36,592 nt of DNA from Microcaldota archaeon (GTDB lineage Archaea > Micrarchaeota > Micrarchaeia > Anstonellales > Bilamarchaeaceae). A program made the translations under genes and the position numbers. This document shows, in pieces, positions 33 through 24,643 of the stretch. The stretch lies in the NCBI GenBank assembly GCA_014727925.1, contig WJMN01000037.1, positions 1-36,592 of the forward strand, written 5' to 3'. Under the pieces are notes generated by a model. The model was given only the letters and a program-made list of their open reading frames with translations. It ran no database searches and was not told where the DNA came from. Each line of letters begins with the position of its first letter. The first letter of the stretch is position 1.

Positions 33-1772
33 TTAGTCATTTAATGCCCGGCTGTAAATCCAGGCCACAAGACCATTTTTTGAAAGGGTGCGCAGTGTTT
101 TTTTCCAGGAGAATTCTATATTCTGTCGCGTAGTGCTGCCGCGTCTCCGGGCTATCTCCGCATATCCCTGCTCTTCCATCTCTTCTCCGTGCTCATTCCT
201 CATTCCGCATACTGACCGCACGATATTCTGCTGCTTTGATGTTAGGCCCAGGACTGCAAAATTAACCATGAATGCAACCTTCTGGCGCTCCTTTGCAATT
301 AGCAGCTCTTCAGGGTTTAGGGGGATTGAATCGGTAGTGTGCATAAACGTTTCTGCATTTATTTGCTGGAGCCGGACCCCTGCTTCCGTATTGCATTTGG
401 GGATATGGCTGGTTTTGCGCAGGAAAACCCCTGTATCCCTGGGATTGAATTTCGGGAACAAATCCGGAAAGGATTCGTATGCTATTTCGTGCATGGCATC
501 AACCAGCTTTTCCGAAGCAAAATCCCGGAAGCTCCCGCTCCCATCCCAATAGGCAGCAGCCCGGAAAAGCTCAAAAAATGCAGTGTGTACTGCCCATTCC
601 GGGAACTCCCTCAGGGAATCAACCCCTTCCTCCTTTTCAAAAACTGAATGGGGCAGAATCCTGTCTCCGTAGATGCCAAACATTGCAGAGATTATATCCA
701 TATTCTGCTCCGCAAGCTCAAGCGCTTCAGGAACGCTGCGGAATGCGCCTTTCCTCTTGCGGTTGCGGGGGTAATTTGGCTTTTTGCGCTGCCTCTTTCT
801 GGGCTTTGGGGCAGGAAACTCCTTTTCCCAGCCCCTACATGTTCCCTCATTTTTGTGGATGAACAGGAGGGCATCTGCAAGCACGGAAGACGGAATCCCT
901 TCGCTTTCACCAATCAGCCCAAGCAAGGAGAGCTGTTTCCTTACCCGCTTTACTCCACGGTGGACGCGGTTAATTAAAGTGCTCTTGTTTACGCCCAGCT
1001 CTTCTGAAAGCTCGGCAAAAGTGCGCTTATTGGGGTCTCCTTCCAGGCAAAAGTATCTGCATACTGCCTCCCTGTTGTTTGGTGGAAGGCGGTTTATTGA
1101 GGCCCAGAGGGCTCTGGCGAACTTGGCGCAGCCTGCACTGTATTCAGGAGTCTGACCCATCTCCTCTCTTGCCTCCTTTGCAAGGGCAGATGGGTGTATC
1201 TCTGAAACAGGGCCAGGGGCATCGTGCAATGGCTTCCCGTTGCCTGTTATGCCATTCAGGGATTTTCTGTTTCCTGTGGGGCCGGATGCAAAAGCGGCAT
1301 CTTCAATGGTTTTTGCCCTGCGGATCCCGACTCCCATTTTTTCTGCAAAATCAGAAAGAGGCGCAGAGGGGTCGCTGGTCCTCCATTCCCAATACTGGCG
1401 GACATGCCTTCTTGCGCTTTTTGTATTTATCAGAACTTCCCGCTCCGCATCCCGGTAGGCGCTTTTTGCGTGTTTCCAGGCAAAATCCTTGAAAGAGAGT
1501 TCCTCCGGGTTCCACTTCTTTGCATTTCTAAAAAGATTGAGTTTGACCATTTGCACAGCATCCTCAAATTCCATTCCCTCCAAGCGGTCAAGGCGAAGGC
1601 GCCTGACTATGCTTTGCGCAAGATGAGGGTGCTTCTGCACAATTCCCCAGCAGGTTGCATCATCCCGCTCATTGTTTTTATGACGGGAAAGCCTTGGATG
1701 CTTATCCGGGAATTTGGGGGGGTTTCCCTTTTGCAGCGGAGGGGATTTTTTTGCAAGTGCCCTGACTCCCAT
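33..1772 (-). CDS. Tandem sigma-70-like protein (two sigma-like modules), 'sigma A'
   Basis: This 579-residue protein reads as two sigma-70-like modules joined by a very basic linker. In module 1, residues 44-112 resemble region 2 (FEDAVQMVKLNLFRNAKKW, then SFKDFAWKHAKSAYRDAE). Residues 118-158 resemble region 3 (LSDFAEKMGVGIRRAK), and residues 213-281 resemble region 4 (INRLPPNNREAV, then FAELSEELGVNKSTLINRV). The linker (about 313-345) is full of Arg, Lys and Pro. Module 2 has a region-2-like stretch (about 349-430; AAAYWDGSGSFRDFAS) and a region-4-like stretch (about 495-570; LGLTSKQQNIV, then YAEIARRRGSTTRQNIEF). The gene begins 5 bp after gene B and is almost certainly co-transcribed with it. 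Sigma factors recruit bacterial RNA polymerase to promoters; whether this protein does so in an archaeon is inference. The module 2 assignment is weaker than module 1. It could instead be a DNA-binding regulator that kept only the fold. Confidence 0.72.
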   Translation of the reverse strand: MGVRALAKKSPPLQKGNPPKFPDKHPRLSRHKNNERDDATCWGIVQKHPHLAQSIVRRLRLDRLEGMEFEDAVQMVKLNLFRNAKKWNPEELSFKDFAWKHAKSAYRDAEREVLINTKSARRHVRQYWEWRTSDPSAPLSDFAEKMGVGIRRAKTIEDAAFASGPTGNRKSLNGITGNGKPLHDAPGPVSEIHPSALAKEAREEMGQTPEYSAGCAKFARALWASINRLPPNNREAVCRYFCLEGDPNKRTFAELSEELGVNKSTLINRVHRGVKRVRKQLSLLGLIGESEGIPSSVLADALLFIHKNEGTCRGWEKEFPAPKPRKRQRKKPNYPRNRKRKGAFRSVPEALELAEQNMDIISAMFGIYGDRILPHSVFEKEEGVDSLREFPEWAVHTAFFELFRAAAYWDGSGSFRDFASEKLVDAMHEIAYESFPDLFPKFNPRDTGVFLRKTSHIPKCNTEAGVRLQQINAETFMHTTDSIPLNPEELLIAKERQKVAFMVNFAVLGLTSKQQNIVRSVCGMRNEHGEEMEEQGYAEIARRRGSTTRQNIEFSWKKTLRTLSKNGLVAWIYSRALND

Positions 1773-10979: not shown

Positions 10980-11076
10980 CCGGTGCGTGCGCGACAGCGG
11001 CACCTAGCGCACCGGGAAAACATTGGCGTTCCGGTATTGCAGAAAACAAAAAGACTAGCCTAACACGGTGTTTTTT
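10980..11076 (+). ncRNA. Candidate small structured RNA (unproven)
   Basis: A strikingly GC-rich patch holds a perfect 8-bp inverted repeat, CCGGTGCG at 10980-10987 and CGCACCGG at 11008-11015, around a 20-nt GC-rich loop. A TATA-like box sits at the right distance upstream (10954-10963). About 60 nt further on, ACAC-GG-TGT followed by a run of six T residues (11070-11076) could end a transcript. No open reading frame or known RNA family is recognisable. A guide RNA such as an H/ACA type is possible but I could not fit one. This is a structural candidate only. Confidence 0.3.
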
Positions 11077-11173
11077 GACAATCCTGGACACATACCCAAG
11101 AAAAGAAATCGAAGTTTTATCAGGGTTTTCTCAGAATTTTGCTCCGGAGTATGAGGGATATAAAAGTTGAATT

Positions 11174-11245
11174 GGGACCGCCGAGATTCGAACTCAGATA
11201 ACAAGCACCCGAAGCTTGCAGCTTACCAGGTTGGCTCACGGTCCC
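11174..11245 (-). tRNA. tRNA-Pro (anticodon CGG)
   Basis: The minus strand folds as a full tRNA. The acceptor stem is GGGACCG with CGGTCCC, the D arm is AGCC...AGCT, and the anticodon stem CAAGC/GCTTG encloses loop TTCGGGT, giving anticodon CGG with G at position 37. The T arm is CTGAG-TTCGAAT-CTCGG. It decodes CCG proline codons. There is no intron and the CCA end is not encoded, as in many archaea. A CCTTTTTAAG box lies about 37 nt upstream of the first base, consistent with a short leader removed by RNase P. Confidence 0.95.
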
Positions 11246-11277
11246 GAATTTTATGGAAAGAATTTGTGAATGAACTG

Positions 11278-11287
11278 CTTAAAAAGG
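11278..11287 (-). promoter_or_regulatory. TATA-like box of tRNA-Pro
   Basis: The minus strand reads CCTTTTTAAG, the same 10-mer as in the gltX promoter. It is centred 37 nt before the mature tRNA 5' end. Confidence 0.5.
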
Positions 11288-11455
11288 CTACTGTATTACC
11301 CAAAATAATATGTCATACTCGTTTTTCTTTGGGAGAACCGAACCTTTCTCCGTGGGATTTGCTCACGGGAAGAAATCGAATCGGGAACGATGTTCACGAG
11401 AAGAAAGTGAAGCTTTCTCAGAGATTTCTCAGATTTTTGAAAAAGAAAGGGACGA

Positions 11456-11475
11456 CAGGTTGGCTCACGGTCCCG
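11456..11475 (-). repeat. Second copy of the tRNA-Pro 5' end (tRNA fragment)
   Basis: CAGGTTGGCTCACGGTCCCG occurs at 11227-11246, where it is the start of tRNA-Pro plus one flanking base, and again identically at 11456-11475. The second copy holds tRNA positions 1-19 on the same strand. The sequence beyond it does not continue as a tRNA. It could be the scar of a lost tRNA copy, of a rearrangement, or of an element that used the tRNA. Confidence 0.7.
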
Positions 11476-11576
11476 GAAAAGATGAAAAAAATTAAGGTTG
11501 TAGTCCTTATAAAGGATATAGTTATCGGCCTTGGCAGATGATGGGCACGCACAATCAAATTGCCAAGCAAAATGAA

Positions 11577-11584
11577 TTTATATG
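11577..11584 (+). promoter_or_regulatory. TATA-like box of the 11605 gene
   Basis: The stretch tttatatg is centred about 25 nt before ATG 11605 and so selects that codon over the longer ORF start at 11560, which lies upstream of the box. Confidence 0.5.
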
Positions 11585-11604
11585 GGTTCCACCTAAATCT
11601 GATT

Positions 11605-12573
11605 ATGCAAGGCAGAGCTGATATGAATATCCGGGGAAGTCCCAGGAGAGTTGGCGGCCAGGACACACCTCACAGGATACATGAGGATATTCTTTTTGCA
11701 AGGGGCAATGCTCCTTCTGAGAGGATAAGTGGCAGGGACCTAGAAAAGGGAAGAAAGCTGCTTTCTAATTTATCAAAAATAAAATATAAAATGAGAGAAA
11801 GAGCCAGGATTGCCTACCTTAATCCTGAAAAAGAAGAGACGGAAATGAAAAAGCTGGCATACGGACTTGCAGTGCTTGATTTTGTTGAAGCAGTAAACAA
11901 GCACGCAGAAAAATCAACCGAGGCAACTTCAGGAGACTATGAGATATTCTGCAATTCTGTTGCCATCTTCACAGATTTTCTGAAAGATAAATATTTTTCC
12001 GCAGAATTTGATAAAATAGAGCTCGCACTTTACATGATGGAATCTGCCCTGGAAGCATGTTCAGAAATATATGGTATGGGGCCTCTCCTGTTTGAAGATA
12101 CCAGCAGGAGATACACGGAAAAGGCAAGGGAGTTTTTTGAAGATTCCAAAAAACACGATTCAGAACTGAGGGCATTTGTTGCGTTAAGGGTGAAAAAACT
12201 TGAGGAAAACCTGAAAGAAGGCAAGGGAGCCCTGAAAACCGAAATAACAGAAAAAATCCTGAAAGCTTTGGAAACCCCTGGCTCAAGAGGCGTGAAATAC
12301 CAGATAAACAACAGGAAATATGATGGGGCATCCATGCATGAGCCCACAGAAGAATTTCTGCTTTTTTCAAAGGGGGACACTGAGGAGGTACAGCTGAAAA
12401 AACTCGATTCGGCAGGAGAACATTACCTGGAGCTGCTAAAACATGAGCTTGGTTTCCTAAAAGGCATGAGGGGCAAGTTCAGGAATGAACTTCCCATAAC
12501 AGCTGCAGAAAGGGAGAACATTTCAGAGATTCGTTCAGGAAAACATGAAAAGCGGATAACCATAATTGGTTAG
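11605..12573 (+). CDS. Helical protein of unknown function
   Basis: A soluble, mostly alpha-helical protein of about 322 residues, rich in Lys and Glu, with no signal peptide or membrane helix. Residues from about 40 on read as a chain of amphipathic helices, for example KKLAYGLAVLDFVEAVNKHA and IELALYMMESALEACSEIYG. A short variable region around VKYQINNRKYDGAS may be a loop or strand pair. I do not recognise a family. It is the first of three plus-strand genes leading into the giant phosphatase-containing protein, though a separate promoter lies before the next gene. The start is the ATG 25 nt after a TATA-like box; ATG 11623 is an alternative. Confidence 0.7.
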   Translation: MQGRADMNIRGSPRRVGGQDTPHRIHEDILFARGNAPSERISGRDLEKGRKLLSNLSKIKYKMRERARIAYLNPEKEETEMKKLAYGLAVLDFVEAVNKHAEKSTEATSGDYEIFCNSVAIFTDFLKDKYFSAEFDKIELALYMMESALEACSEIYGMGPLLFEDTSRRYTEKAREFFEDSKKHDSELRAFVALRVKKLEENLKEGKGALKTEITEKILKALETPGSRGVKYQINNRKYDGASMHEPTEEFLLFSKGDTEEVQLKKLDSAGEHYLELLKHELGFLKGMRGKFRNELPITAAERENISEIRSGKHEKRITIIG

Positions 12574-12595
12574 AATGTGTTAATTTGAACTAAAG

Positions 12596-12606
12596 CTTAA
12601 ATATAT
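12596..12606 (+). promoter_or_regulatory. TATA-like box of the 86-aa gene and giant gene
   Basis: CTTAAATATAT is centred about 25 nt before ATG 12625, preceded by AAAG that could act as part of a TFB recognition element. It probably drives both 12625-12885 and the giant gene behind it. Confidence 0.55.
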
Positions 12607-12624
12607 GTACTTCGTTTTTATTTT

Positions 12625-12885
12625 ATGGGTCTCGATGACAGGATTGTGAAGCTGGACAAAAAAACAAAAAGACAGGTTGCAAAGAGCCTGAAATCAATCA
12701 ACATTGCACTGAAGCTTAATTCTGCAAAACTCAGGGGAAAAAAGGTGCCAAAAAGATTCCAGAAGCTAATGAAATGGAAAAACGAGCTTGAACGGTGGCA
12801 GCAGAATTACGGCGAGGCAAATGACCTTATGGTGATTGCAGAAGGACTTGGCGCATTCAACGAAATCTGCACACGCCTAGGGTGA
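12625..12885 (+). CDS. Small basic helical protein upstream of the giant gene
   Basis: An 86-residue Lys/Arg-rich protein (KKTKRQVAKSLKSINIAL, RGKKVPKRFQKLMKWKNELE) with predicted helices and no membrane segment. I do not recognise a family. A TATA-like box 25 nt before the ATG fits a leaderless transcript. The stop codon overlaps GGTGA, which sits as a ribosome-binding site just before the GTG of the giant gene 6 bp downstream, so the two are probably co-translated. A partner or chaperone-like role for the giant protein is a guess from that coupling. Confidence 0.7.
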   Translation: MGLDDRIVKLDKKTKRQVAKSLKSINIALKLNSAKLRGKKVPKRFQKLMKWKNELERWQQNYGEANDLMVIAEGLGAFNEICTRLG

Positions 12886-12891
12886 ATAAAG

Positions 12892-15800
12892 GTGCCTGCA
12901 AGGAAACAGAGCCGTGCAGAAGAAATCGAAGAAGTCAGCCTAGAGGCTGAAGGAGAAGCAGAAAAAAGGGCGAGGGAGCTCCGGAATTCCATACCAAACA
13001 TAGTTTCTACCAGCGACCAGGCAGTAGCAGAAGCACTTGGACAGAGAGGAGAAAGCCGGGAAGTTTCAGCAGAAATTGAAGAAACAGCAGTCGCTGCAGA
13101 AGAAGAAGCTGAAGCAGGCATTGGAGAGCTTCAGCAGATGCAGTTTAGGCAAAGCCTGGAAATGGGAGTGCATATGCTGTATGCTGATGGGAGGCAGATT
13201 AAAGAATCGGCCGGAAATGAAATTGTTCTGGGATTTGCAGAAAAAGCAAAAGATGCATATGAAGCAGAATCATACGAATTGTGCGCAAAATACCTTGCAT
13301 ATGGGGAAGCTGCAATTTACGGGGCCATGGGTGCTGCAGAAGACGGTTCAGCATTGGAAAAGATAAATAAGGAAGGCCAAGAGCTGCTGGAAAATCCCGC
13401 GCTGATGGAAAAAAAAGAGAACCTGGAGTTGCTCGCACAGGCACAGCTGGAGATACAGCTGTATTCCGCAGAAAAAACTGCTGCGGGAATTGAAAATGCG
13501 CTGGGGAGCGCGGCATTGGGCAGGAAGGAAAGGGAGTTTGTGCAAAAGCAGCTAAATAAAGCGCGGCTTGAATATATGGATGCCAGGGGGGAGCTTGCCC
13601 GGGGAAGAACAAAAAAAGCAGCAGAGCTGGCAGGCAAATGCAGCCAGAGGGCCAACGCACTTCAAAGCTATATTGAAGGAGTATATGAGCAGAAGGCCAT
13701 GGGGGCCGCCCACAGGAGAATCAGAGTAACTGTTGAAATTAGTGGTGAAAAGAAAAAAACCACCATGGGAAAAATTGTTGAGCAGCAGATTTCAAAAATG
13801 CAGGAAGCTGTTGAGAAAGCAGATGCCGAATCTGCAGGTGAGCTTCTGGGGGGAGTCAGATATTACCGCGCTTACAGCGAACTGCAGAGATTCCGGAACT
13901 CAAGCAGAGGATATGCCGGAAAGGCCGGAAGCCGCTTGGCATTTGTCGGGGAAACTGCAGAAAAGCTTATGACGAGGGGGATGTTCCCGGAAGCACTGGG
14001 TGTTCTCAATATTGGATATAATTACAAGGCAACTTTTGAGAAAAGCACATATGTGGGCTTTGCAAAAAGCAGTGAAACTCTTATTGAAGCTGAAAGAAGG
14101 ATAAGAGGGGATGCCGGCCTGAAAATATCAGAAGACAGCCTTGCCCAGGCAAGGAAGTCCCTGGGAAGGGCGATAGATTCTCTTGATCCTAAGCTGGTTG
14201 AAGAAAGGAGAAGAAAGGGGCTCCGACCCATAGATATGGAAAGGGAACTAAGGAAAGCCGGGATGCATTCGGAGATGGCCATGGGTATGGGGGCAGCACT
14301 GGAGATAAACAAGAAAAGGGCCAGGGAAACGGCAGGGAGAATTTTCCAGAAAGCAAGCAAAGAGGAAGCGGAAAAAGCAGCAGAAGAGGAAATGCCCCGC
14401 GCATATGCAAGCCTTAAAAGAATGGAGGGTGCCGCGCTCGGAGGAAAGCCTGAAGAGATGGAAACAGCATCACTCTCCTTTTCACAAAATCTTGAAGTTG
14501 AGAGGGAAGAGTGGATTGCGCGGCTTGAGCGGCCCCATGTGCTTGCTGCATTTCAGCATGGGCAGGAAACCCTAGAGAGTATAAGGGACCAGGCTGCTGA
14601 TGAAAGTAAAGGGCTTGGAAATGCTGCAGACAGCATAGAGGAATTGGCTGTTGGAAGAGAAGAAGTGGAAGGGAATGCCAGAATAGTTGCAATAAACATC
14701 AGAAAAGGTGCAAAAGCTGCTGGGGAACTGAGCAACCGCGCCGCTGATGAACTTGAAAGAGAAGGCAGGGAGGAAGCCGGATTCAGCTTTAACGGTGAAG
14801 TAGGCAGAGGGAGAATAATTTCTCCTGGGCAGGAAAAAGCAGAAGTAGAAATTATGAGGGCAGCAGTAGCAAGGCAGGAAGAGATAATGGAGGATGCTGC
14901 AGGTATTTCCCAGAGAACCTCGGGACTGGGGATTTTGAGCCAGCAGGTCATTGGGAGCCTTGCAGGCTATCGCTCAGGAAACATGAGCGCTTTCAGGGGT
15001 TCAGATATTGAAAGGGGAATGGCGCAGGTCAGGTTCAGGGGGGCTATTGCAGAATATGCACAGGCATCAAGATACCTGGCTAACTTTGGGAGCGGGGATG
15101 TGCAGCTCGGCAAGGACATGAAAAATGCACATGATAACCTAGGTGACGGGCTGGAGGATGAAGCAGCTGCAGTCTCGCTTATGACTGGTGAGATGGTAGG
15201 CCATGAGCATGGTGAGGAAGTAAGGCAAAGGATAGAGGGAATATATGTGGGCCCGAGGCTTGCAGAATTTGAAATAAGCACAGGCATGCGGGAAGCAGAA
15301 GAAGGAGAGGGGCTTAGGGTGAGGCGGGAAATTGTAGCGAGTTCTTTAGTGAAGCAGCAGGCAATTGCGGGAACTCATGCTTTTGTTGGAAACGAAGGAA
15401 AAAGAATCTGGAAAATGGTGGAGAACACGGAAAGGATAAAGGATGGGAAAACAAGTGGAGTGGAGCAGCGGATTGCCCTTTCGGAAGTCAGAGTCCAGTC
15501 AGATGAAATGGATTTTGACAGGGAACAGGCCGCCACTATAGAAGGCGGTGTGCATTTCCTTAAAGCGTTTGTGCCGGTTGTTGGCCAGGCCTTTATCGCA
15601 ACAGATGTGCTGCATGGGGCTTCAAATGAAATTGAAATGGCAGGAGAAGTGAGCTGGGGGACTGTAGGGATGGGGGCACTCGTTGCAGCCCCCTATGTAG
15701 GCAAGGGGGCCCAGATGTTCCGGGCATCCCATGGAATCCAGAGGGCAATAGGTTTTGCCCATACAGGATTGGTTATAGGGATGACCGGGCATGGGGCATA

Positions 15801-18800
15801 CCATGGATATGAAGCATTCAAGCAAGGCCATTATGGGGCAGGCATACTCTCAGCAGCTCAAACGCTCCCGATGGCTTTCCATGGTGGCACAGGCATGCCA
15901 AAACTTAATAGGATGCTCAAGGCAAAAGTCGGGGCATCATTTGCGCTGCTTGGGGCCGGAATTGCATCCGGCGCAGGAAGAGCACGGGCAAGCAGGGGAG
16001 CTGCAAAATCCCCCAAGCCAACTTCCGAGCGGGCTTTGTCCGGGCTTGAAGAACTGGGAATCACAGAGCCATCAAGAATACGGGGTATTGAGCAGCGCAT
16101 TGGAGTCCGGGGGGCAGAACAACGGGCCAATGCACTTAAGAGGGCCTTTAGGGGAATAGAGAGGACTGGGAGGGAAGTTGTAGAAAAAAGTCCAGAACTC
16201 TTCACAAAGCCACAGGCCGAATTTGAAGCAGACATAACCAGATTCAAAAAAACACGGAACGCAGTAGAGCACCTAAAAGAAACAGCAGAAAAACATGGCC
16301 TTAGGCCGGCTAGGGGAATGGAAAGTGATGCAAGGCCATACCTAGATGTTGGATTCAGGGAGAATGTGGCCGGATATCTTGCTCGCAGAAAAGTGGAAGG
16401 CATGGAGCTGAGGACACCAGAATATCTAAAAAGCCAGGTAGAAAGCAGGGGGCTGCCAAAAAAAGCAGAATACAGTAATAGGGCAGAGAGGCAGTCTGCA
16501 GCTTTCAGGAAAAGAAATAGCCCAGAATGGGCTGAGAAAACAGTCCGGGAAAACCAGCCTTCAATGGGAGAAACGGTGGAAAATCAGCGATTGCGATACC
16601 TGGCCCTAAACAGAATTGCAGGGGAACCCCCGGAAACAAGGCAGCGAATAAAGGATAGAATATATGAGGGAATAAGTGAAGAAAACAAGCCAATACTTGA
16701 TATGGAATGGAAAATATACGTGGAGGGTTCAGTTCCTGGGCTCAACAAATACCGTCCGGTTTTGGAAGTGCCGGGTTTTGAGGCTCTTCCTGCCAAATCT
16801 CTGGCTCCGGAAACAAAACCAGATGTCAGCACTTTCCTGAAAAAAGCTGAAGGGGCAAATGCCCACGGAATTAGTGCAGAAAAGGGGGGCCACCAACGTT
16901 TTACAGATGTAATAATTAAAGGAGAGATAGGTGAAAATGCCTGGGTTGGGCCATTGAAGAAAGGGCCAGGCATGGACCGTTCTGTTTCCTCTGCATACCA
17001 TGGCCCCTTCTGGGTTGTCCTGGAAGGAAAAGCGGGTGCAGGAAAGGGACCAATAACTTCCAGGGAACACCTGGCATATGTGTGTCCTTCGGAAAAATAT
17101 TTGCTTCGGACATCACATGCAGTAAAGCAGGCTTACTCAAGAGGGCTTCTCACCAGGGCAGAAGCTTCTGATGCCATTTCAAGGCTAATGACAGCAGGCG
17201 AAGCCAAAAAAGCCCCTTCATCTGCATTTGAATCCAGTTCCAGGTGGGATAATGCGGCGAGGGAATTCTGGGGTGAGAGAAAAGCCTTGGCTGAAGCAGA
17301 ACTAAAATCTTTTGAAAGAGTCCACAGAAGAGGAATAATTGAGGCTGCACAGCCTGAAAAAACTGTAATTGAAAGAATGGAAGAACTGCGGGCCGAACAA
17401 AAAAGAACAGGTGTGCCCAGCGCAGAACTTGCAAGGCTGAAAAGAATCGTGAAAGAAAATCCTGAAATAAGGGAAGCTGTAAAAAGGGTCAGGCGTGCCA
17501 GAAGAAGGCTAAAAAACGCAGAAAGCGGAAGACAGATAGGCGCAATTGGGGATGTGGAGGGAACACGGAAGGAGCACGTGGCCCGTGCCAAAAAGCAACT
17601 TGAAGAAGCAGAAGGGCATCTGCTTGAAATTGAAAAAATAGCTGTTCAGGAAGGGAAGAGGACCGGAGTAGTGAAACGAGTGTTTGAAAGGCTGAGGGCG
17701 CTTGGAAAAAAGAGAAGAGAACAGGCGGAAATGGTGTTGGACCCCAAAGGGGAAAAAACAGAAGTGCCACAAGAAAGGGCAAAAAGCCCCACCAGGAGGG
17801 TACGGGACACGATATTCAGGTCCGCGATAGTAGACGCAGGAATGAGGAGGGCTATAGGCTTGGAGAGGGGAAGGGCACTGGCTGAGAGTGCATGGGCAGA
17901 TGTTTATAGGGGAGAGCCCGAGCCCACATTCAGAAACAGACTGGAGAAGGATGCCTATTCTGCCATGAAAGGCCAGGTTGAAGCAAGGTTTAGTCAGGTG
18001 GTGGAATACGCCTGGAAAGACATTGTCAGGGAAAAGACCAAATCAAAGAAGACAAAGGAGCCGCACAGGATAAATGAGGCAGAAATGCCTGTGTACCTGC
18101 GAACAAAAAGAATATTCAGTGCAATATGGGAAGCAAACCTAAAGCGAAGGGGAATGAATAAAAAAAGAGTACGGGGGATGATAGACCCCCAGGAAATTGC
18201 GGCAGACTACAGAGGGTACCTGCAAAGGGGCGCCGGAATGCCTAAAGAGATGCTTGCAAAAGTGCGGGAGATGGGGATAGAAACCACCATCACATATGAT
18301 AGCAAATACGTAACCAAAGTCAAAAACCCCTCTGCTGAAATCACAATCGGGGACATGCACGGAGACCATGTTACAGTTGTCACAGGATTCAAGGAAGCGG
18401 GATTCATAATTGATACCCGGCCGGACCTTCCAGTGGGTGACAAAAGCGTACTCCCTGCAGACCGGTACATAGTCAACAGAGAAATAGGGCAGGGCACACA
18501 ATTCATATTCCTCGGGGACTACATAGACAGAGGGCCGCACAGCCTCTATGCTGTGGATTTTGTGCAGTGGTTCAGGGGAGAAGTATCAGATTTAGGCAAT
18601 GGCTCGCGGGTGCACACACTAAGGGGCAACCATGAAGCAATTTTCAGCAGGGTTTTCAATAGATACAAGGGAAAAACCACTGCTGAGGTGCGGGAACTAA
18701 TAGCTGAAATTGAGCGATATCACACTCTGAAATCAAGGGGAAGAAATGCGGAAGCGCTGGACACTTCAGAAACCGGCAGGCTGGGAGAATTCAAAAGGGA

Positions 18801-20190
18801 AGGTGTTGCACTGGAGAGAGTCGGGACTGAAACCCTGCTTAGGAATATCCTGGAGAGATATGGAACGTGGGAATCTGCAGTAGTGGAAATGCAGAAAGAA
18901 GGGGGACTCATGCATTTTATTGAAAACACAAAGGCAGTTGCGATAATGGAAAGCGGGGAAGGCAGGCACATGTTTACTCATGCAGGGCCCGTAACCAAAA
19001 CCGCGGCAAGGGAGGCAGACGGAACACCTGTGAAAACACTTTCCGGAGATATAGTGTATGATGAGATAAGGAACGTGGATATGTTAAACAGGCATTATGA
19101 GAAATTTTTTGAAAATGACCTAAACTCTTGGGCCCAAAATGACGTCCCAACAGACCCAACGATGTATGGCCGCTATGTGAGGGAATACCGGGAAGCTGCT
19201 TATTCGGGAGATTACTCTTCCGCATATGCAGGGCTTCCGGAAAACCAGGGAGGGTGGAAGCCGGATTCTGCCACTTCAAAGGTAGGAGATAACCTGAGGC
19301 TTCTTTATGAAAACCTCGGCCTGGTAAGCATAAACGTGGGGCACCACGCAGGCCCGGAAACACGTGCAGTAAGCTTTCTTAAGTTCGGGGAAAGGCCGAT
19401 GGAGATAATATGTAATGATTCTTCATTAAGTGAAGTATACCTTGGCAGGTATTCTGCCTGGAAAGGCGGAATACAGTACAAAAGGGCGTGGGGGCTAGAA
19501 AGGAGCCTAGTCATAAGGGGTAGAAAAGAGGCAGCAGGAAAAGCAGAGAAAACACCCAAAATGGAAGAATTTGTTTCTCCTATTGAAATGGAAAATCCTT
19601 ATTCAAAGGCATGGGCAGAAACAGAAGGGGCAAGGCTTTCGGCAATAGAAGCAGGAGAAACCACGGCAACTATTCCTACCCTGCAGATTAAAACAGATGC
19701 CCATGTGCCTGTGCGCAGGGCTGGGCACGTCCCCCCCGTAAGAGGGATACAGCCAAAAAGGCCAAAGCCAAAAAAGCCGGTAAGGGCCCCGCCCAAAACG
19801 GAGGAAACAGAACCCTCTGGAGAAAGAATACGGGAACCATACCCTGAAATACCTGACAGGTTTGAAAAGTGGACTGACCCGGAAACAGGGCTAAGCGGAA
19901 GCAGGCTAAAAAGTTACATGGAAAAGGGAACGTATACAAAGGAGTTTGTTGTCCCTGTAAGAATAAAGGGAGAAACAGGAAGATGGCTTGTGAGAATAGA
20001 GGGTGTTATCCCTGACAGGAGAGGCGAGAGATACTGGTACAGTGTATCAGGATGGCCTGAAAACATAGAATACGCCCCTGGGGAAACAACAGGGTCTATT
20101 GTTTTGAAAAAAGGTGAAAGCCTGAAGGCAAGGATAATAGATAACATACAAAGAAGTTTTGCAAAAACAGGCTCAAGAAAAAAGAGATAG
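12892..20190 (+). CDS. Giant protein (2432 aa): helical N-terminal region, hydrophobic Gly-rich core, C-terminal PPP-family phosphatase domain
   Basis: Residues 1-870 are almost entirely charged, Ala/Glu-rich helices, with TPR-like stretches such as MFPEALGVLNIGYNYKA. Residues 884-1035 are hydrophobic and glycine-rich (FLKAFVPVVGQAFIATDVL, VGASFALLGAGIASGAG), like the membrane-interacting part of some secreted toxins. Residues 1040-1800 are again charged and helical, with an unrecognised globular part near 1330-1440. Residues 1815-2165 carry every core motif of the PPP metallophosphatase family: GDMHGD (1820-1825), GDYIDRG (1875-1881), RGNHE (1911-1915), HAGP (2030-2033) and VGHH (2149-2152). 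A Pro/Lys-rich linker (about 2268-2318) precedes a C-terminal beta-type domain. The enzyme should bind two metal ions and remove phosphate from Ser/Thr proteins or nucleotides; the substrate is unknown. No signal peptide is visible. The GTG start has GGTGA upstream. Confidence 0.85.
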   Translation: MPARKQSRAEEIEEVSLEAEGEAEKRARELRNSIPNIVSTSDQAVAEALGQRGESREVSAEIEETAVAAEEEAEAGIGELQQMQFRQSLEMGVHMLYADGRQIKESAGNEIVLGFAEKAKDAYEAESYELCAKYLAYGEAAIYGAMGAAEDGSALEKINKEGQELLENPALMEKKENLELLAQAQLEIQLYSAEKTAAGIENALGSAALGRKEREFVQKQLNKARLEYMDARGELARGRTKKAAELAGKCSQRANALQSYIEGVYEQKAMGAAHRRIRVTVEISGEKKKTTMGKIVEQQISKMQEAVEKADAESAGELLGGVRYYRAYSELQRFRNSSRGYAGKAGSRLAFVGETAEKLMTRGMFPEALGVLNIGYNYKATFEKSTYVGFAKSSETLIEAERRIRGDAGLKISEDSLAQARKSLGRAIDSLDPKLVEERRRKGLRPIDMERELRKAGMHSEMAMGMGAALEINKKRARETAGRIFQKASKEEAEKAAEEEMPRAYASLKRMEGAALGGKPEEMETASLSFSQNLEVEREEWIARLERPHVLAAFQHGQETLESIRDQAADESKGLGNAADSIEELAVGREEVEGNARIVAINIRKGAKAAGELSNRAADELEREGREEAGFSFNGEVGRGRIISPGQEKAEVEIMRAAVARQEEIMEDAAGISQRTSGLGILSQQVIGSLAGYRSGNMSAFRGSDIERGMAQVRFRGAIAEYAQASRYLANFGSGDVQLGKDMKNAHDNLGDGLEDEAAAVSLMTGEMVGHEHGEEVRQRIEGIYVGPRLAEFEISTGMREAEEGEGLRVRREIVASSLVKQQAIAGTHAFVGNEGKRIWKMVENTERIKDGKTSGVEQRIALSEVRVQSDEMDFDREQAATIEGGVHFLKAFVPVVGQAFIATDVLHGASNEIEMAGEVSWGTVGMGALVAAPYVGKGAQMFRASHGIQRAIGFAHTGLVIGMTGHGAYHGYEAFKQGHYGAGILSAAQTLPMAFHGGTGMPKLNRMLKAKVGASFALLGAGIASGAGRARASRGAAKSPKPTSERALSGLEELGITEPSRIRGIEQRIGVRGAEQRANALKRAFRGIERTGREVVEKSPELFTKPQAEFEADITRFKKTRNAVEHLKETAEKHGLRPARGMESDARPYLDVGFRENVAGYLARRKVEGMELRTPEYLKSQVESRGLPKKAEYSNRAERQSAAFRKRNSPEWAEKTVRENQPSMGETVENQRLRYLALNRIAGEPPETRQRIKDRIYEGISEENKPILDMEWKIYVEGSVPGLNKYRPVLEVPGFEALPAKSLAPETKPDVSTFLKKAEGANAHGISAEKGGHQRFTDVIIKGEIGENAWVGPLKKGPGMDRSVSSAYHGPFWVVLEGKAGAGKGPITSREHLAYVCPSEKYLLRTSHAVKQAYSRGLLTRAEASDAISRLMTAGEAKKAPSSAFESSSRWDNAAREFWGERKALAEAELKSFERVHRRGIIEAAQPEKTVIERMEELRAEQKRTGVPSAELARLKRIVKENPEIREAVKRVRRARRRLKNAESGRQIGAIGDVEGTRKEHVARAKKQLEEAEGHLLEIEKIAVQEGKRTGVVKRVFERLRALGKKRREQAEMVLDPKGEKTEVPQERAKSPTRRVRDTIFRSAIVDAGMRRAIGLERGRALAESAWADVYRGEPEPTFRNRLEKDAYSAMKGQVEARFSQVVEYAWKDIVREKTKSKKTKEPHRINEAEMPVYLRTKRIFSAIWEANLKRRGMNKKRVRGMIDPQEIAADYRGYLQRGAGMPKEMLAKVREMGIETTITYDSKYVTKVKNPSAEITIGDMHGDHVTVVTGFKEAGFIIDTRPDLPVGDKSVLPADRYIVNREIGQGTQFIFLGDYIDRGPHSLYAVDFVQWFRGEVSDLGNGSRVHTLRGNHEAIFSRVFNRYKGKTTAEVRELIAEIERYHTLKSRGRNAEALDTSETGRLGEFKREGVALERVGTETLLRNILERYGTWESAVVEMQKEGGLMHFIENTKAVAIMESGEGRHMFTHAGPVTKTAAREADGTPVKTLSGDIVYDEIRNVDMLNRHYEKFFENDLNSWAQNDVPTDPTMYGRYVREYREAAYSGDYSSAYAGLPENQGGWKPDSATSKVGDNLRLLYENLGLVSINVGHHAGPETRAVSFLKFGERPMEIICNDSSLSEVYLGRYSAWKGGIQYKRAWGLERSLVIRGRKEAAGKAEKTPKMEEFVSPIEMENPYSKAWAETEGARLSAIEAGETTATIPTLQIKTDAHVPVRRAGHVPPVRGIQPKRPKPKKPVRAPPKTEETEPSGERIREPYPEIPDRFEKWTDPETGLSGSRLKSYMEKGTYTKEFVVPVRIKGETGRWLVRIEGVIPDRRGERYWYSVSGWPENIEYAPGETTGSIVLKKGESLKARIIDNIQRSFAKTGSRKKR

Positions 20191-20195
20191 ACGAA

Positions 20196-20723
20196 CTACT
20201 TCTCTATTGTGTTGAACCGCTTTTTGTAATCCTTCACATCTCCAATATCCCGGAGTATTCTCTGTTCTTCATCAGAAACGGGGACTTGCTGAAAATACCT
20301 TCTCTTCATTTCAAGAAGAAAACTAAATTCAGATTCGGCATTGGCCAGGCAGAAATTTGCAATTGCATCCATCTTCATTTCCCGCATTTCAGGTTCTTCG
20401 CCTGATGCAACATATACATATGGGGCAGCAGCAAGATATTCCAGCTTTTTCCTGTCGCCATATTCCACAGCAGTGACCTCTTTGTTATCAAAAAGAGAGC
20501 GCATAACTGTTTTAATTTCATTTCTGAATAATTCCCCTCTGTTGTCCAGTCTTTTTTTAAGGAATGCAAACCTGGAAAGCAGGGAAGCTGCGAGTTTCTC
20601 CGATATATATCTCTTTCCATTCCGTATTTGAAAATTGCCTGATTCGGAATTTACCCTTGGAAGGCCTTTAAGGACCCTTGGGCGGGGAGTATTGGGGCCT
20701 CTGCTTATCTCCTTTGCTGGCAT
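20196..20723 (-). CDS. Helical protein of unknown function, convergent with the giant gene
   Basis: A soluble protein of about 175 residues with a proline/arginine-rich N terminus (NTPRPRVLKGLPRVN) followed by amphipathic helices such as LASALLSRFAFLKKRL-like stretches and a C-terminal helix ending KDYKKRFNTIEK. No known family is recognised. I start it at the second Met (20723) because a TTTAAATATAA box on the minus strand at 20744-20754 lies 26 nt upstream; the longer ORF to 20777 would place the box inside the coding region. Its stop is 5 bp from the stop of the giant gene, and its promoter faces that of the 20833 gene. Confidence 0.6.
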   Translation of the reverse strand: MPAKEISRGPNTPRPRVLKGLPRVNSESGNFQIRNGKRYISEKLAASLLSRFAFLKKRLDNRGELFRNEIKTVMRSLFDNKEVTAVEYGDRKKLEYLAAAPYVYVASGEEPEMREMKMDAIANFCLANAESEFSFLLEMKRRYFQQVPVSDEEQRILRDIGDVKDYKKRFNTIEK

Positions 20724-20743
20724 AGGGGTAATTAGCGCAGAGA

Positions 20744-20754
20744 TTATATTTAAA
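20744..20754 (-). promoter_or_regulatory. TATA-like box of the 20196-20723 gene
   Basis: The minus strand reads TTTAAATATAA, centred 26 nt before the ATG at 20723. It is one of the best TATA matches in the window. Confidence 0.55.
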
Positions 20755-20792
20755 GGTTCTGGAGGGAGGCTGGGCAACCTTTTTAAAGAACA

Positions 20793-20803
20793 CGTTTATA
20801 AAC
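20793..20803 (+). promoter_or_regulatory. TATA-like box of the 20833 gene
   Basis: The stretch cgtttataaac is centred near 20798 and predicts a transcript start near 20824. The long plus-strand ORF opening at 20635 is therefore probably not used from its first codon. Confidence 0.45.
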
Positions 20804-20832
20804 ATTTTGCAACATATTATGTTCTGTGTGAG

Positions 20833-22092
20833 GTGCAAAATTTGGGCAGAGAAGGAAAAAAGCCAAAAGCGGTTTCCCGGCCCATAATGGTTGCACCGGA
20901 AAAAAGGGGGGCCAATTGTGCATTCAAAACCGTGTGTCGCAGAAAATGCATCACGCCTCAAAGGCCTGTGATTGAAAAAAAGGCAAAAAGGCTTGTTCGG
21001 AAGAGAGTAAAGGACCTGGTCAAAAAAATAAACAGAATCACGGATTCGTGCCTGGATGAAAAAACCCTTGAAAAAAAGATTTCCCTTGCAAAAGAACTTG
21101 TTTTCATTCTTGAAGGCGTAGCAATTCCAAGAAAAAATGGGGGCACTGAATATGCTGTGTGTGGGCAGGGGAAAGGAAATGGGATGCAAGTTATGCAGAT
21201 GTTCAGCTATGAGGAACTGGGGGAAATTCTCCAGGGGATTTCGCTGCAGATTGACCTTGCGGGAGGATATATGGGAGCATCTGAAAAGGCCGCCCCATCC
21301 GGCTTGTATTTTGCATTTTCACACCTGCTTGCGCACAGGAGCGCAATTGAGCTTCCAGAAAGGCAGGATGCTATTGGGAAACTCATAATAGACGGGGGAA
21401 TGGAAGGGATTCGCATGGTTTCAAGGATGGCAGGTGAGCCAGCCATTTCACTTGAAAAAAGAAAAGAATACCTGAAAGCACTTAGCTGGGTTATCTCCTG
21501 TGCCGAGTTTTCAGGAGGGGAACCCACAATAAATAAAAAAGATTACCTGCTCGCCGCTTCTCTCTCAAGATTCATGCCTATTGAGAGTATTGGGGAACTG
21601 GAAGGAGGTGTGGAAACTGTGGATTTTTACCATATGGAAAGCCCGGGACCAGGAACAGAAATTAACATTGGTTTCCTTAAACAGATGGTTGAACTTGCAG
21701 TTTCTGAATTGTTTATGGGGCTGGTGGATACCTCTGCAAGAATGAACGCTATTTTTTCATCCTCCCCTGAGCAGATTGAGAACTACTATGCTCTTGGAGA
21801 GGAATATTACCATGCACTTGAATTTGGTACAAAACTGCTCGCGGGGAAAGGGGCGCCAAACAGGGAAATCCTGCTGCACGTTTGCAAAAGCAAAAAGGAT
21901 GGCATGTCAGGAATGGAGCAGAGAGACATTGCAATGCTAAACCATATTTTGCATAAGCTCAACAGCGAGGGGGTGCTGGACCAGAGTGCGGCAGAGAGCC
22001 TTTTTTCTTCGCTAGGAAATAACAATGAAAATCTGCAGGAAGAACTCACAAGAATTCATTTTTACCCTGGAACTCGGTTAAAACCCGAGTGA
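20833..22092 (+). CDS. Unknown mainly helical protein with basic N-terminal Cys motif
   Basis: A protein of about 419 residues. The first 80 are strongly basic and include VCRRKC, a CxxxC pair, and RLVRKRVKDLVKKINRI. The rest is helical with no membrane segment: AAPSGLYFAFSHLLAHRSAI, LKQMVELAVSELFMGLVD, YALGEEYYHALEFGTKLLAG. I recognise no family. The ORF is open back to 20635, but a TATA-like box inside that stretch and overlap with the opposite gene argue for a later start. GTG 20833 is my choice; ATG 20887 is possible. An out-of-frame ATG at 20819 would encode MFCVRC, so a frameshift near 20870 should be considered. Its 3' end overlaps the end of the UbiA gene by 15 bp. Confidence 0.6.
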   Translation: MQNLGREGKKPKAVSRPIMVAPEKRGANCAFKTVCRRKCITPQRPVIEKKAKRLVRKRVKDLVKKINRITDSCLDEKTLEKKISLAKELVFILEGVAIPRKNGGTEYAVCGQGKGNGMQVMQMFSYEELGEILQGISLQIDLAGGYMGASEKAAPSGLYFAFSHLLAHRSAIELPERQDAIGKLIIDGGMEGIRMVSRMAGEPAISLEKRKEYLKALSWVISCAEFSGGEPTINKKDYLLAASLSRFMPIESIGELEGGVETVDFYHMESPGPGTEINIGFLKQMVELAVSELFMGLVDTSARMNAIFSSSPEQIENYYALGEEYYHALEFGTKLLAGKGAPNREILLHVCKSKKDGMSGMEQRDIAMLNHILHKLNSEGVLDQSAAESLFSSLGNNNENLQEELTRIHFYPGTRLKPE

Positions 22093-22974
22093 AGCAAGAA
22101 GCAGGGAAAGAAGCCCGCAGAACAGTGCTGCAAGTGAATACTTCCTTACTGTGGGGAAGGTCTTGTCTGCCCTTGCATAAAGCAGATACAGGGAAAGTAT
22201 TAGAATAGAGATGTCTGCAAGAAAGAGGAAAAATCCGGATGCGAAATGAAGGGAAAGCCGGAACATAAAGGGCACAACCGTGAGCGGGATAAACAGGAGG
22301 AAAAGCATGGATGCTATGAACAGGGAAGGCCCCTTGCCTATGACCATGGGGAGGGTTCTGGACTTTCTTGCCTTAAGGTCTCCTTCCATATCCTCCACTG
22401 ATTTTACTATTTCACGGGCAAGCCCGGCCAGGAAACCCAGGAAAGCAATGTCCCATATTATTTCAGGCGGAGCCTGCACATACACATAAGCTCCGAAAAG
22501 GAAGGGAACTGCCATGGTGGTTGCAATGAACAGGTTTCCGCAGACTGCAACGTCCTTCAGCTTCACATTGTAGAGGATTGCGAACAGGTTGAAGAAAAGG
22601 GCAATTGCAAATGCTGATTCGTTTATGAGGTAACCTGCAATTATGGAAACCGCAAAAGAGACCACGGCAATTGCAAGCGCGGTGGATGGCTGGACCGTTC
22701 CCTTTACAAGGGGGCGCTCGAGCATGCCGTTTATCCGGTCTGCCTCCACATCCATGTAATCATTTAGAGCAAAAGAGCCGATCTCCGAGAATATGGGGAC
22801 AAGCATTGAAAGAAAGAAAACGGTTTCAATTGGAGGAATTTCCCCGAGAACAACAATTTCTGCAATAAGAACAGCAATGGCCAGCATGATTGCGTGCTCA
22901 AAGCGGACCAGCCGATAGTATTCACGGAACTTCGCTAGGACATCCCAGAGGGTGATATCCTTCTCCGGAAGCAT
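22078..22974 (-). CDS. UbiA-family prenyltransferase, probable digeranylgeranylglyceryl phosphate synthase
   Basis: A 298-residue membrane protein with about eight or nine hydrophobic segments. It carries both Asp-rich UbiA motifs: NDYMDVEADR (residues 71-80) and DMEGDLKARK (about 193-202), which bind the prenyl diphosphate through magnesium. In archaea the enzyme of this type adds the second geranylgeranyl chain to geranylgeranylglyceryl phosphate to make the membrane lipid core. That is the likely role here and it links to the AcnX isoprenoid genes at 4-5.7 kb. Other UbiA substrates (menaquinone, heme O) cannot be excluded from sequence alone. It starts from a promoter shared with agmatinase. 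Confidence 0.85.
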   Translation of the reverse strand: MLPEKDITLWDVLAKFREYYRLVRFEHAIMLAIAVLIAEIVVLGEIPPIETVFFLSMLVPIFSEIGSFALNDYMDVEADRINGMLERPLVKGTVQPSTALAIAVVSFAVSIIAGYLINESAFAIALFFNLFAILYNVKLKDVAVCGNLFIATTMAVPFLFGAYVYVQAPPEIIWDIAFLGFLAGLAREIVKSVEDMEGDLKARKSRTLPMVIGKGPSLFIASMLFLLFIPLTVVPFMFRLSLHFASGFFLFLADISILILSLYLLYARADKTFPTVRKYSLAALFCGLLSLLLASLGF

Positions 22975-22994
22975 GATTTGATAACACAGGAAAG

Positions 22995-23004
22995 CAATTT
23001 AAAC
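22995..23004. promoter_or_regulatory. Shared TATA-like element of the UbiA and agmatinase genes
   Basis: CAATTTAAAC, centred at 23000, lies 26 nt from the UbiA ATG (22974) on the minus strand and 27 nt from the agmatinase ATG (23027) on the plus strand. The TTTAAA core is symmetric, so a single box can point both ways. Confidence 0.55.
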
Positions 23005-23026
23005 TCTGCGCAGGCAAGAAAAACAT

Positions 23027-23887
23027 ATGGAGCTTCAGTTTCTTGAAAGGAATGCCGGGTTTGATTCTGCAGATGCCTGCATACTCCCCGTACCGTATGA
23101 AGGCACTGTGTGCTTCAGGGGAGGGGCTGCAAATGGCCCGGAGGCAATACTCAATGCAAGCGTGGAAGTTGAGGAATATGATATTGAACTCGGCTTTGAA
23201 ACAATCGGGGACGGGCTTCCCGGAGGCTTTCATGTAATGGAGCCTGTGGAGGCAGACAAAAAGAAAGCATCTGAGATTGATAGGGAAGTTTATTCTGCAG
23301 TTTCCAGGATGATGGGGGCAGATAAATTCCCAATTGTACTTGGGGGAGAGCACAGCATCTCTTCGGGTGCGGTAAGGGCGGTTGCGGAAAAATTCCCGAA
23401 AGTTTCGGTTTTGCAGATTGATGCACATGCGGATTTACGGAATGAATTCCAGGGAGAAAAATATTCGCATGCGTGCGCAATGCGGCGGATGATGGAATAT
23501 GCAGGAAAGAGTGCGCAGGTGGGGGTGCGCAGCATGAGCTCAGAGTGCGCAGAATACTTAAGCAGGAACCCTGAACTCAAGAGCTGGGGAAGCGAATTTA
23601 AAACAGAGGATGTACTGGGCGCGCTTGGGGAACACGTGTACATTTCAATTGACCTGGACGGGTTTGACCCATCAGAAATGCCCGGGGTGGGGACTCCCTG
23701 CCCCGGAGGCGTATCCTGGAAAAAAGGCCTTTCCCTGCTGAGGGAGGTTGCAAAAAAGAAAAAAATAGTGGGATTTGATGTGGTGGAGCTGTCTCCAATT
23801 GAGGGAGAAGTGGTGAGCGAGATTTTTGCGGCAAACCTTGTGTACAAAGTTGCCGGATACTCATTGTTCCCCGGAAGACTCGGATAA
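23027..23887 (+). CDS. speB: Agmatinase/ureohydrolase family enzyme
   Basis: A 286-residue member of the arginase/agmatinase family. All manganese-binding motifs are present: GGEHSIS (106-112), DAHADLR (132-138), the SHACAMRR helix, DLDGFDPSEMPGVGTP (209-224) and DVVELSP (251-257). In archaea agmatinase splits agmatine to putrescine and urea for polyamine synthesis. The SHACAMRR and GVGTPCPGG surroundings fit agmatinase better than arginase, but formiminoglutamase-like substrates are not excluded. It is leaderless from the TATA-like element shared with the UbiA gene. The 3' end overlaps the convergent 23861-24643 gene by 27 bp. Confidence 0.9.
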   Translation: MELQFLERNAGFDSADACILPVPYEGTVCFRGGAANGPEAILNASVEVEEYDIELGFETIGDGLPGGFHVMEPVEADKKKASEIDREVYSAVSRMMGADKFPIVLGGEHSISSGAVRAVAEKFPKVSVLQIDAHADLRNEFQGEKYSHACAMRRMMEYAGKSAQVGVRSMSSECAEYLSRNPELKSWGSEFKTEDVLGALGEHVYISIDLDGFDPSEMPGVGTPCPGGVSWKKGLSLLREVAKKKKIVGFDVVELSPIEGEVVSEIFAANLVYKVAGYSLFPGRLG

Positions 23888-24643
23888 ATCCAGGTGTTCC
23901 CGAAAATATTCGATAACGTGCTCCTGGAACTGCCTGAAAGAACCATAGCCGAATTTGCTGTGGAGGCGCAGCATGAACGGGTGGGGAGAAAAGTGGGGCA
24001 CAGAAACAACATACCCTTCAAGGTCTGCAGAAGCAAAAAGGCTGCGCACATTTCCCCTTTTTCCGTAAATCTTCTTCACATAGGAAGACTGCATTGCCTG
24101 CTCCTTGGAAATGATTCTCCCTTTCATTCCCCTGTGGAAAAAATTGAACCTTATTCTTCTTTTCTCGGTTTTTCCACTGACCATGTTCTTGAGCAGTTTT
24201 TCAGTATCCACTGAAACCTTCAGGTCTTTTCCATCGTATGCGACAGAATACTTGTTTTTGGGAAAATGGGAAAAAAGGAAGCTGGAAAGGAAGGGCCTGC
24301 CCGCTTCCTGCCCCACTGTTTTTGAAAACACCACAAGGGTGCTTCCGGAAAAGAAAACGGAGCGGGTTGCCCCATGGGCAAAATGATTTCCCATCTTTTC
24401 CCCGTCTAAAAACAGGGGCTGGAAATAATTATGTGGAACGGCAAACGCGGCTCTTGCCTCAAAAAGCGGCTTGGAAAGCTTTGTAGGCCATTTAAGGGAA
24501 GTATAGAGATTTTGGGAGAGAGAGGGGAACTTCTCCAGGAATTCCTTGGTAGTTTCAAGGCGGTGGATGTCCTCCTCCTGCATCTTCTCCAAAAGAGAAA
24601 GGTATTCCGAATCCGAAGAAGCGGCCTCGCAGATTTTGCACAT
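23861..24643 (-). CDS. Unknown protein with N-terminal CxxC, downstream of FKBP
   Basis: A 260-residue soluble protein starting MCKICEAA, so a CxxC pair sits at the very N terminus, then an acidic helix (LSLLEKMQEEDIHRLETT). The middle is a mixed alpha/beta domain (FFSGSTLVVFSKTVGQEAG, NKYSVAYDGKDLKVSVDTE) with many aromatic and basic residues, followed by RRIRFNFFHRGMKGRI and HPFMLRLHSKFGYG. No family is recognised. The gene starts 1 bp after the FKBP stop (TAGA-ATG), with GGAAGAG upstream as a ribosome-binding site, so it is translationally linked to the isomerase. The CxxC could bind metal or be redox active, but only one pair is visible. Confidence 0.65.
   Translation of the reverse strand: MCKICEAASSDSEYLSLLEKMQEEDIHRLETTKEFLEKFPSLSQNLYTSLKWPTKLSKPLFEARAAFAVPHNYFQPLFLDGEKMGNHFAHGATRSVFFSGSTLVVFSKTVGQEAGRPFLSSFLFSHFPKNKYSVAYDGKDLKVSVDTEKLLKNMVSGKTEKRRIRFNFFHRGMKGRIISKEQAMQSSYVKKIYGKRGNVRSLFASADLEGYVVSVPHFSPHPFMLRLHSKFGYGSFRQFQEHVIEYFREHLDLSESSGEQ

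Follow-up and report, generated by a model that had tools for sequence, protein, structure and literature searches.

The tRNA-Pro(CGG) locus

The window, by which we mean the whole 36,592-nucleotide stretch analysed here from contig WJMN01000037.1 of a Microcaldota archaeon, carries an intact tRNA-Pro(CGG) gene on its minus strand (Table 1). The first 19 nt of this gene plus one leader base, CAGGTTGGCTCACGGTCCCG, recur nearby on the same strand, as the initial annotation had pointed out, and both copies are exact. The repeated tRNA start lies 229 bases from the original, and 209 bp separate the two copies. The whole-genome search that the annotation had proposed returned these two copies and no others at up to three mismatches (1,008,376 bp in 59 contigs); at the same threshold the number of matches expected by chance in the window is 0.00, with none in shuffled sequences. 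We refer to the genome itself as G000 and to its genus-mates, all draft assemblies from one Micrarchaeota genus, as G001–G005. None of the genus-mates searched contains a second near-exact copy, and in G004 the 20-mer occurs once, in a single tRNA-Pro(CGG) gene. An assembly artefact is an unlikely source of the 20-bp repeat, even in a draft genome from an uncultured lineage.

Table 1. Features of the tRNA-Pro(CGG) locus and of a related tRNA pair in the same genome (window positions unless a contig is named)
Feature	Position	Strand	Basis
Second hairpin-type repeat, 3′ side of tRNA-Pro	11040–11165	+	Sequence similarity
Intact tRNA-Pro(CGG)	11173–11245	−	ARAGORN; Rfam RF00005, 49.4 bits
First 20-mer copy (tRNA nt 1–19 plus one leader base)	11227–11246	−	Sequence match
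TATA-like box of intact gene, CCTTTTTAAG on the minus strand, motif start −41	11278–11287	−	Motif scan; upstream DNA common to G001 and G004
Dispersed hairpin repeat; core 11322–11455 (TTTTTCTTTGGG...AAAAAGAAAGGGACGA)	about 11304–11455	+	Copies in G000, G001, G002, G004 and G005
Second 20-mer copy (proposed 5′ stub of a second tRNA-Pro(CGG)), hard against the hairpin repeat	11456–11475	−	Sequence match
Stub upstream region, weakly similar to tRNA-Pro(CGG) upstream regions	11476–11545	−	Local alignment against shuffles
TATA-like box of stub, CCTTTATAAG on the minus strand, motif start −40	11506–11515	−	Motif scan
tRNA-Ser(TGA) pair, L105 (G000:C52)	C52:411–494 and 1610–1693		

The interval between the copies is made up of two kinds of DNA. 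Positions 11247–11294 are the native upstream DNA of tRNA-Pro; these 48 nt are identical in G001, and the TATA-like region is also common to G004. Most of the remainder is a dispersed hairpin repeat, which ends at 11455 with zero bases between it and the second 20-mer. The annotation had weighed an integrated element here, and an element of a different sort from the one it had in mind occupies most of the 209 bp. Compared with G004, the window contains ∼265 extra bp, at roughly 11296–11565 in an alignment read by eye. The second hairpin-type repeat, on the other side of the tRNA gene, is related to the first: 11097–11141 is 80% identical to 11395–11439. Folding of the whole repeat is no stronger than that of dinucleotide shuffles (z −1.1), and the assignment of its palindromes therefore rests on sequence symmetry across copies. 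We also considered whether the GGGACGA ahead of the fragment was the 3′ acceptor strand of a tRNA left by an internal deletion; it is the right end of the repeat itself. Separately, the tRNA-Pro gene with its near flanks (11160–11294) is 98% identical to G001 (L033 4671–4806), compared with ∼77–78% for the neighbouring genes, a difference in sequence identity that suggests recent conversion or transfer of this patch.

A genus-limited family of hairpin repeats

The repeat belongs to a multi-copy, intergenic family with inverted-repeat ends, represented by 21 copies with matching arms in five genomes (G000, G001, G002, G004 and G005). Its simplest form is GTAATATCTSAAAATGC-TTTTTCTTTGGGNGAACCGNNCCTTTCTTTTT-loop-AAAAAGAAAGGGNNGA, and longer forms nest further hairpins inside. 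For example, L041, L042, L052, L056 and L067 have complete hairpins inserted within the first hairpin, sometimes in several layers. The family is essentially confined to one Micrarchaeota genus. A pattern of 22 specified bases run over the GTDB collection matched ten loci, all in Micrarchaeota, and one isolated site in Pelagimonas. In a further pattern search, hits outside the five genomes were few and comparable to those of a reversed-pattern control.

Family members tend to end at RNA genes. The right end lies 0–3 nt from the end of a tRNA in 11 of 21 distinct copies (nine at 3′ ends and two at the 5′ end of tRNA-Leu(CAG)), and in five of 21 it abuts GCTCCAGTTTCTCATCA, the 3′ end of a candidate C/D-box sRNA; the copies come from pattern-chosen loci, some of them orthologous, so that these counts are not of independent events. 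By a rough estimate, less than one random position per thousand falls so near a tRNA end. At the first copy in L050 only a short fragment of the candidate sRNA is present, and in L037 and L070 the candidate resembles Rfam sR3, with scores below the gathering threshold. In five species (L037, L050, L054, L062 and L070) a complete or variant hairpin repeat lies at the 3′ end of this candidate sR3-like sRNA or close to it. At tRNA-Leu(CAG) the repeat is found at the 5′ end of the gene, between the TATA-like box and the tRNA (G005 L059 8792–8884 and G004 L061 2059–2109), a placement that does not suit a pure terminator role.

Promoter and upstream DNA of the second copy

The second 20-mer is a sense-strand piece of a gene body, matching at 20 of 20 nt, and it is accompanied by a recognisable TATA-like promoter box, a combination expected of a tRNA pseudogene. 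On the minus strand, CTTTATAAGGA stands at −40 of the fragment, compared with CTTTTTAAGCA at −41 of the intact gene. Many tRNAs show only a weak match to the trained TATA motif, and the argument from spacing rests mainly on these two tRNA-Pro boxes.

The upstream DNA also resembles that of tRNA-Pro genes. Set against the upstream regions of 72 tRNAs from the genus, the 70 nt upstream of the fragment were most like those of tRNA-Pro(CGG) in G005, followed by those in G000 and G001, which are not independent comparisons. In register, these three share 26, 24 and 24 positions with the fragment's upstream DNA; one tRNA-Ala region shares 23 and ties with tRNA-Pro(CGG) in local score. Local alignment to the upstream region of the intact gene gave shuffle p values of 0.008–0.0165, and alignment to that of G005 a p value of 0.001; aligned end to end, the upstream regions of the fragment and of the intact gene showed no significant similarity (p 0.43). 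The likeness to tRNA-Pro promoters is thus supported statistically but weakly. The intact gene's own upstream region matches those of G001 and G004 and has no match with that of G005 (p 0.71). Two tRNA-Pro(CGG) lineages with differential loss would fit this pattern, each piece of evidence being modest. None of the draft genomes searched has two intact tRNA-Pro(CGG) genes, a weak kind of absence in drafts, and G001, G004 and G005 show one each. The right flank (11476–11575) has no convincing homologue elsewhere.

Duplication of a tRNA gene together with its promoter has a parallel in the same genome. The tRNA-Ser(TGA) gene is doubled within a 251-bp unit at 97% identity, the copies lying ∼1.2 kb apart, and one of them has a damaged acceptor stem. 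Four low-scoring tRNA-like matches elsewhere in the genome (G000:C10:12662–12720, C43:19007–19092, C59:5098–5156 and C39:3816–3890) may, judging by their scores, be degenerate or unusual tRNA genes.

Origin of the repeated tRNA end

The initial annotation had offered three explanations for the repeat, namely an integrated element, the remnant of a second tRNA copy, and a tRNA-fragment gene. The remnant is the best supported of these, because the fragment has a TATA-like box of its own and tRNA-Pro-like upstream DNA, and because tRNA-Ser shows a duplication with decay. We put at about even the chance that the second 20-mer is what survives of a second tRNA-Pro(CGG) gene, its 5′ stub, truncated at the hairpin repeat. 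Under this model a second gene would once have been present, with its TATA-type promoter on the right, and the genus-specific hairpin repeat would have lain against it, as at many tRNA genes of the genus. Since about half of the distinct copies have their right end no more than 3 nt from the end of a tRNA, a tRNA is what one would expect at this position. Deletion of tRNA nt 20 onward at the junction would then have joined the first 19 nt directly to the repeat. The work is presumably done by the intact gene 229 bp away, and the stub is probably DNA without a function; were it still transcribed, the product would be a short RNA that carries the tRNA-Pro 5′ end and stops in the T-rich end of the repeat. 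Several considerations count against the stub. Identity over 20 nt amid diverged flanks would require gene conversion, or else selection that persisted up to a recent truncation. The relatives searched include none with two intact tRNA-Pro(CGG) genes, the upstream similarity has an equal in one tRNA-Ala region, and other hairpin-repeat copies have short direct repeats although no gene is duplicated there.

The last point leads to the main alternative, that the hairpin repeat itself produced the duplication as a by-product: insertion or repair would copy 15–39 nt of the neighbouring sequence onto the right end, leaving a long target-site-like duplication or templated filler, and the 20-mer would never have come from a second gene. 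Direct repeats flank six of the 19 copies with both ends present (four independent loci: the window, the sRNA locus, L052 and L058), and in all six the right member lies 0–2 nt from the end of the hairpin repeat. They measure 20 nt in the window, 15–24 nt at the sRNA loci, 18 nt with two mismatches at L052 and 39 nt without mismatch at L058, and each pair scores higher with itself than in cross-pairs, the orthologous sRNA loci excepted. At L052 five relatives have the duplicated gene end once, so the extra gene end there was derived together with the hairpin repeat; at L058 the search for an empty site found no orthologous flank. Because at least one other locus links duplication to the repeat, we keep the by-product explanation open as a serious, if lesser, possibility. 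The remaining 13 of 19 copies have no such direct repeat, and the geometry of the window is also poorly accommodated. At the other loci the left copy ends 30–40 nt ahead of the core, compared with 75 nt in the window, where native promoter DNA common to G001 and G004 separates the left copy from the repeat. The same promoter DNA speaks against a simple target-site duplication, which we rejected in that form. Moreover, copying from the neighbour accounts neither for the TATA-like box behind the right copy nor for the tRNA-Pro-like upstream DNA there. A broader version, in which the hairpin repeat inserts precisely at the ends of mature tRNAs and C/D-box sRNAs and adds a copy of 15–39 nt of a neighbouring gene end to its own right side, with the tRNA-Pro 20-mer as one case, we regard as rather unlikely.

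Integration by an integrase-borne element, of which the repeat would be the att-type scar or remnant, is very improbable. Archaea do have integrated elements with tRNA ends repeated directly on either side (PMC9897764), but here only 209 bp lie between the copies, and native upstream DNA and the hairpin repeat take these up. The search of the genome for an integrase gene, also proposed in the annotation, gave a single match (PF00589, Phage_integrase) on contig C1, away from the repeat; the 20 window proteins scanned include no integrase and the 209-bp interval contains none, its plus-strand ORFs being mechanical ones of 61 and 124 aa. The annotation had further placed the start of an accessory block just past the repeat. 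Much of that right-hand DNA is instead collinear with G004, which has a single tRNA-Pro(CGG) copy, at 11748–12870, in pieces of 16117–19892, and at 20359–24544, whereas G005 gave no blastn matches over 11249–22090. The block thus varies within the genus, and nothing ties its boundary to the 20-mer repeat. With no integrase in the interval and a flanking block largely collinear in a relative that lacks the repeat, we rejected the att site. The block includes a 2432-codon ORF (12892–20190, plus strand) whose one Pfam match is a weak one to a metallophosphatase (PF00149) and which is partly matched in G004.

A functional gene in the fragment is improbable too, if somewhat less so than an att site. 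The box would drive transcription of a short RNA that starts as tRNA-Pro does at its 5′ end and acts as a regulator or decoy, and the TATA-like box at tRNA-like spacing and the T-rich stretch immediately after the fragment are what such a gene might have. The promoter-like box leaves the annotation's tRNA-fragment gene a small chance, but the fragment is retained in none of the relatives examined, and its RNA folds no better than shuffles. Nothing shows a function for the stub, whose transcript is a candidate read from sequence features. Archaea also have split tRNAs, and strong promoters lie upstream of both halves of split tRNA-Lys (PMC3218864), but we give almost no credence to a half gene joined in trans to a 3′ half: the break falls in the D-loop, and no separate 3′ half is present among the tRNA-Pro matches in the genome. 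The intact tRNA-Pro(CGG) gene led us to reject this candidate.

Relationship to known systems

Partial tRNA genes are left by integrated archaeal elements, e.g. tRNA-Gln(TTG) beside PYG1 in Pyrococcus yayanosii (PMC9897764). The copies that bracket such elements enclose 9–23 kb, compared with 209 bp and no integrase in the window, and, unlike PYG1-type partial genes, the partial copy here has a promoter-like box of its own. The closer comparison is with tRNA pseudogenes formed by duplication and decay, which the proposed stub resembles in orientation, promoter spacing and truncated body, and for which tRNA-Ser provides the parallel in the same genome. Unlike in ordinary duplication with decay, the truncation proposed here coincides precisely with the end of a dispersed hairpin.

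The hairpin family shares with REP and MITE-like repeats, as surveyed for bacterial and archaeal REPs (PMC12306157), a short, palindromic, intergenic and multi-copy character without an ORF of its own. It differs in being limited to one genus, in having its right end at tRNA and sRNA gene ends in one orientation, and in its nested hairpins. As outlined in the reports on organelle elements, the hairpin elements (RHE) of sponge mitochondria (PMC2800124) and the palindromes of Volvox (PMC2670323) are likewise small palindromes that spread in intergenic DNA; against that outline, the present family stands apart in its archaeal chromosomal setting and its consistent adjacency to RNA gene ends.

Implications

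The window repeat is best accounted for in ordinary terms, as a decayed tRNA gene next to a dispersed hairpin. The 20-mer repeat is not an integration scar and gives no ground for annotating a hidden provirus or island here. The more interesting part is the hairpin family, whose habit of ending at RNA genes and whose occasional flanking duplications are worth separate study. A genus-limited family of this kind would suit asking how small palindromic repeats choose their sites, whether RNA genes in reduced archaeal genomes take their terminators from them, and how tRNA genes come to decay.
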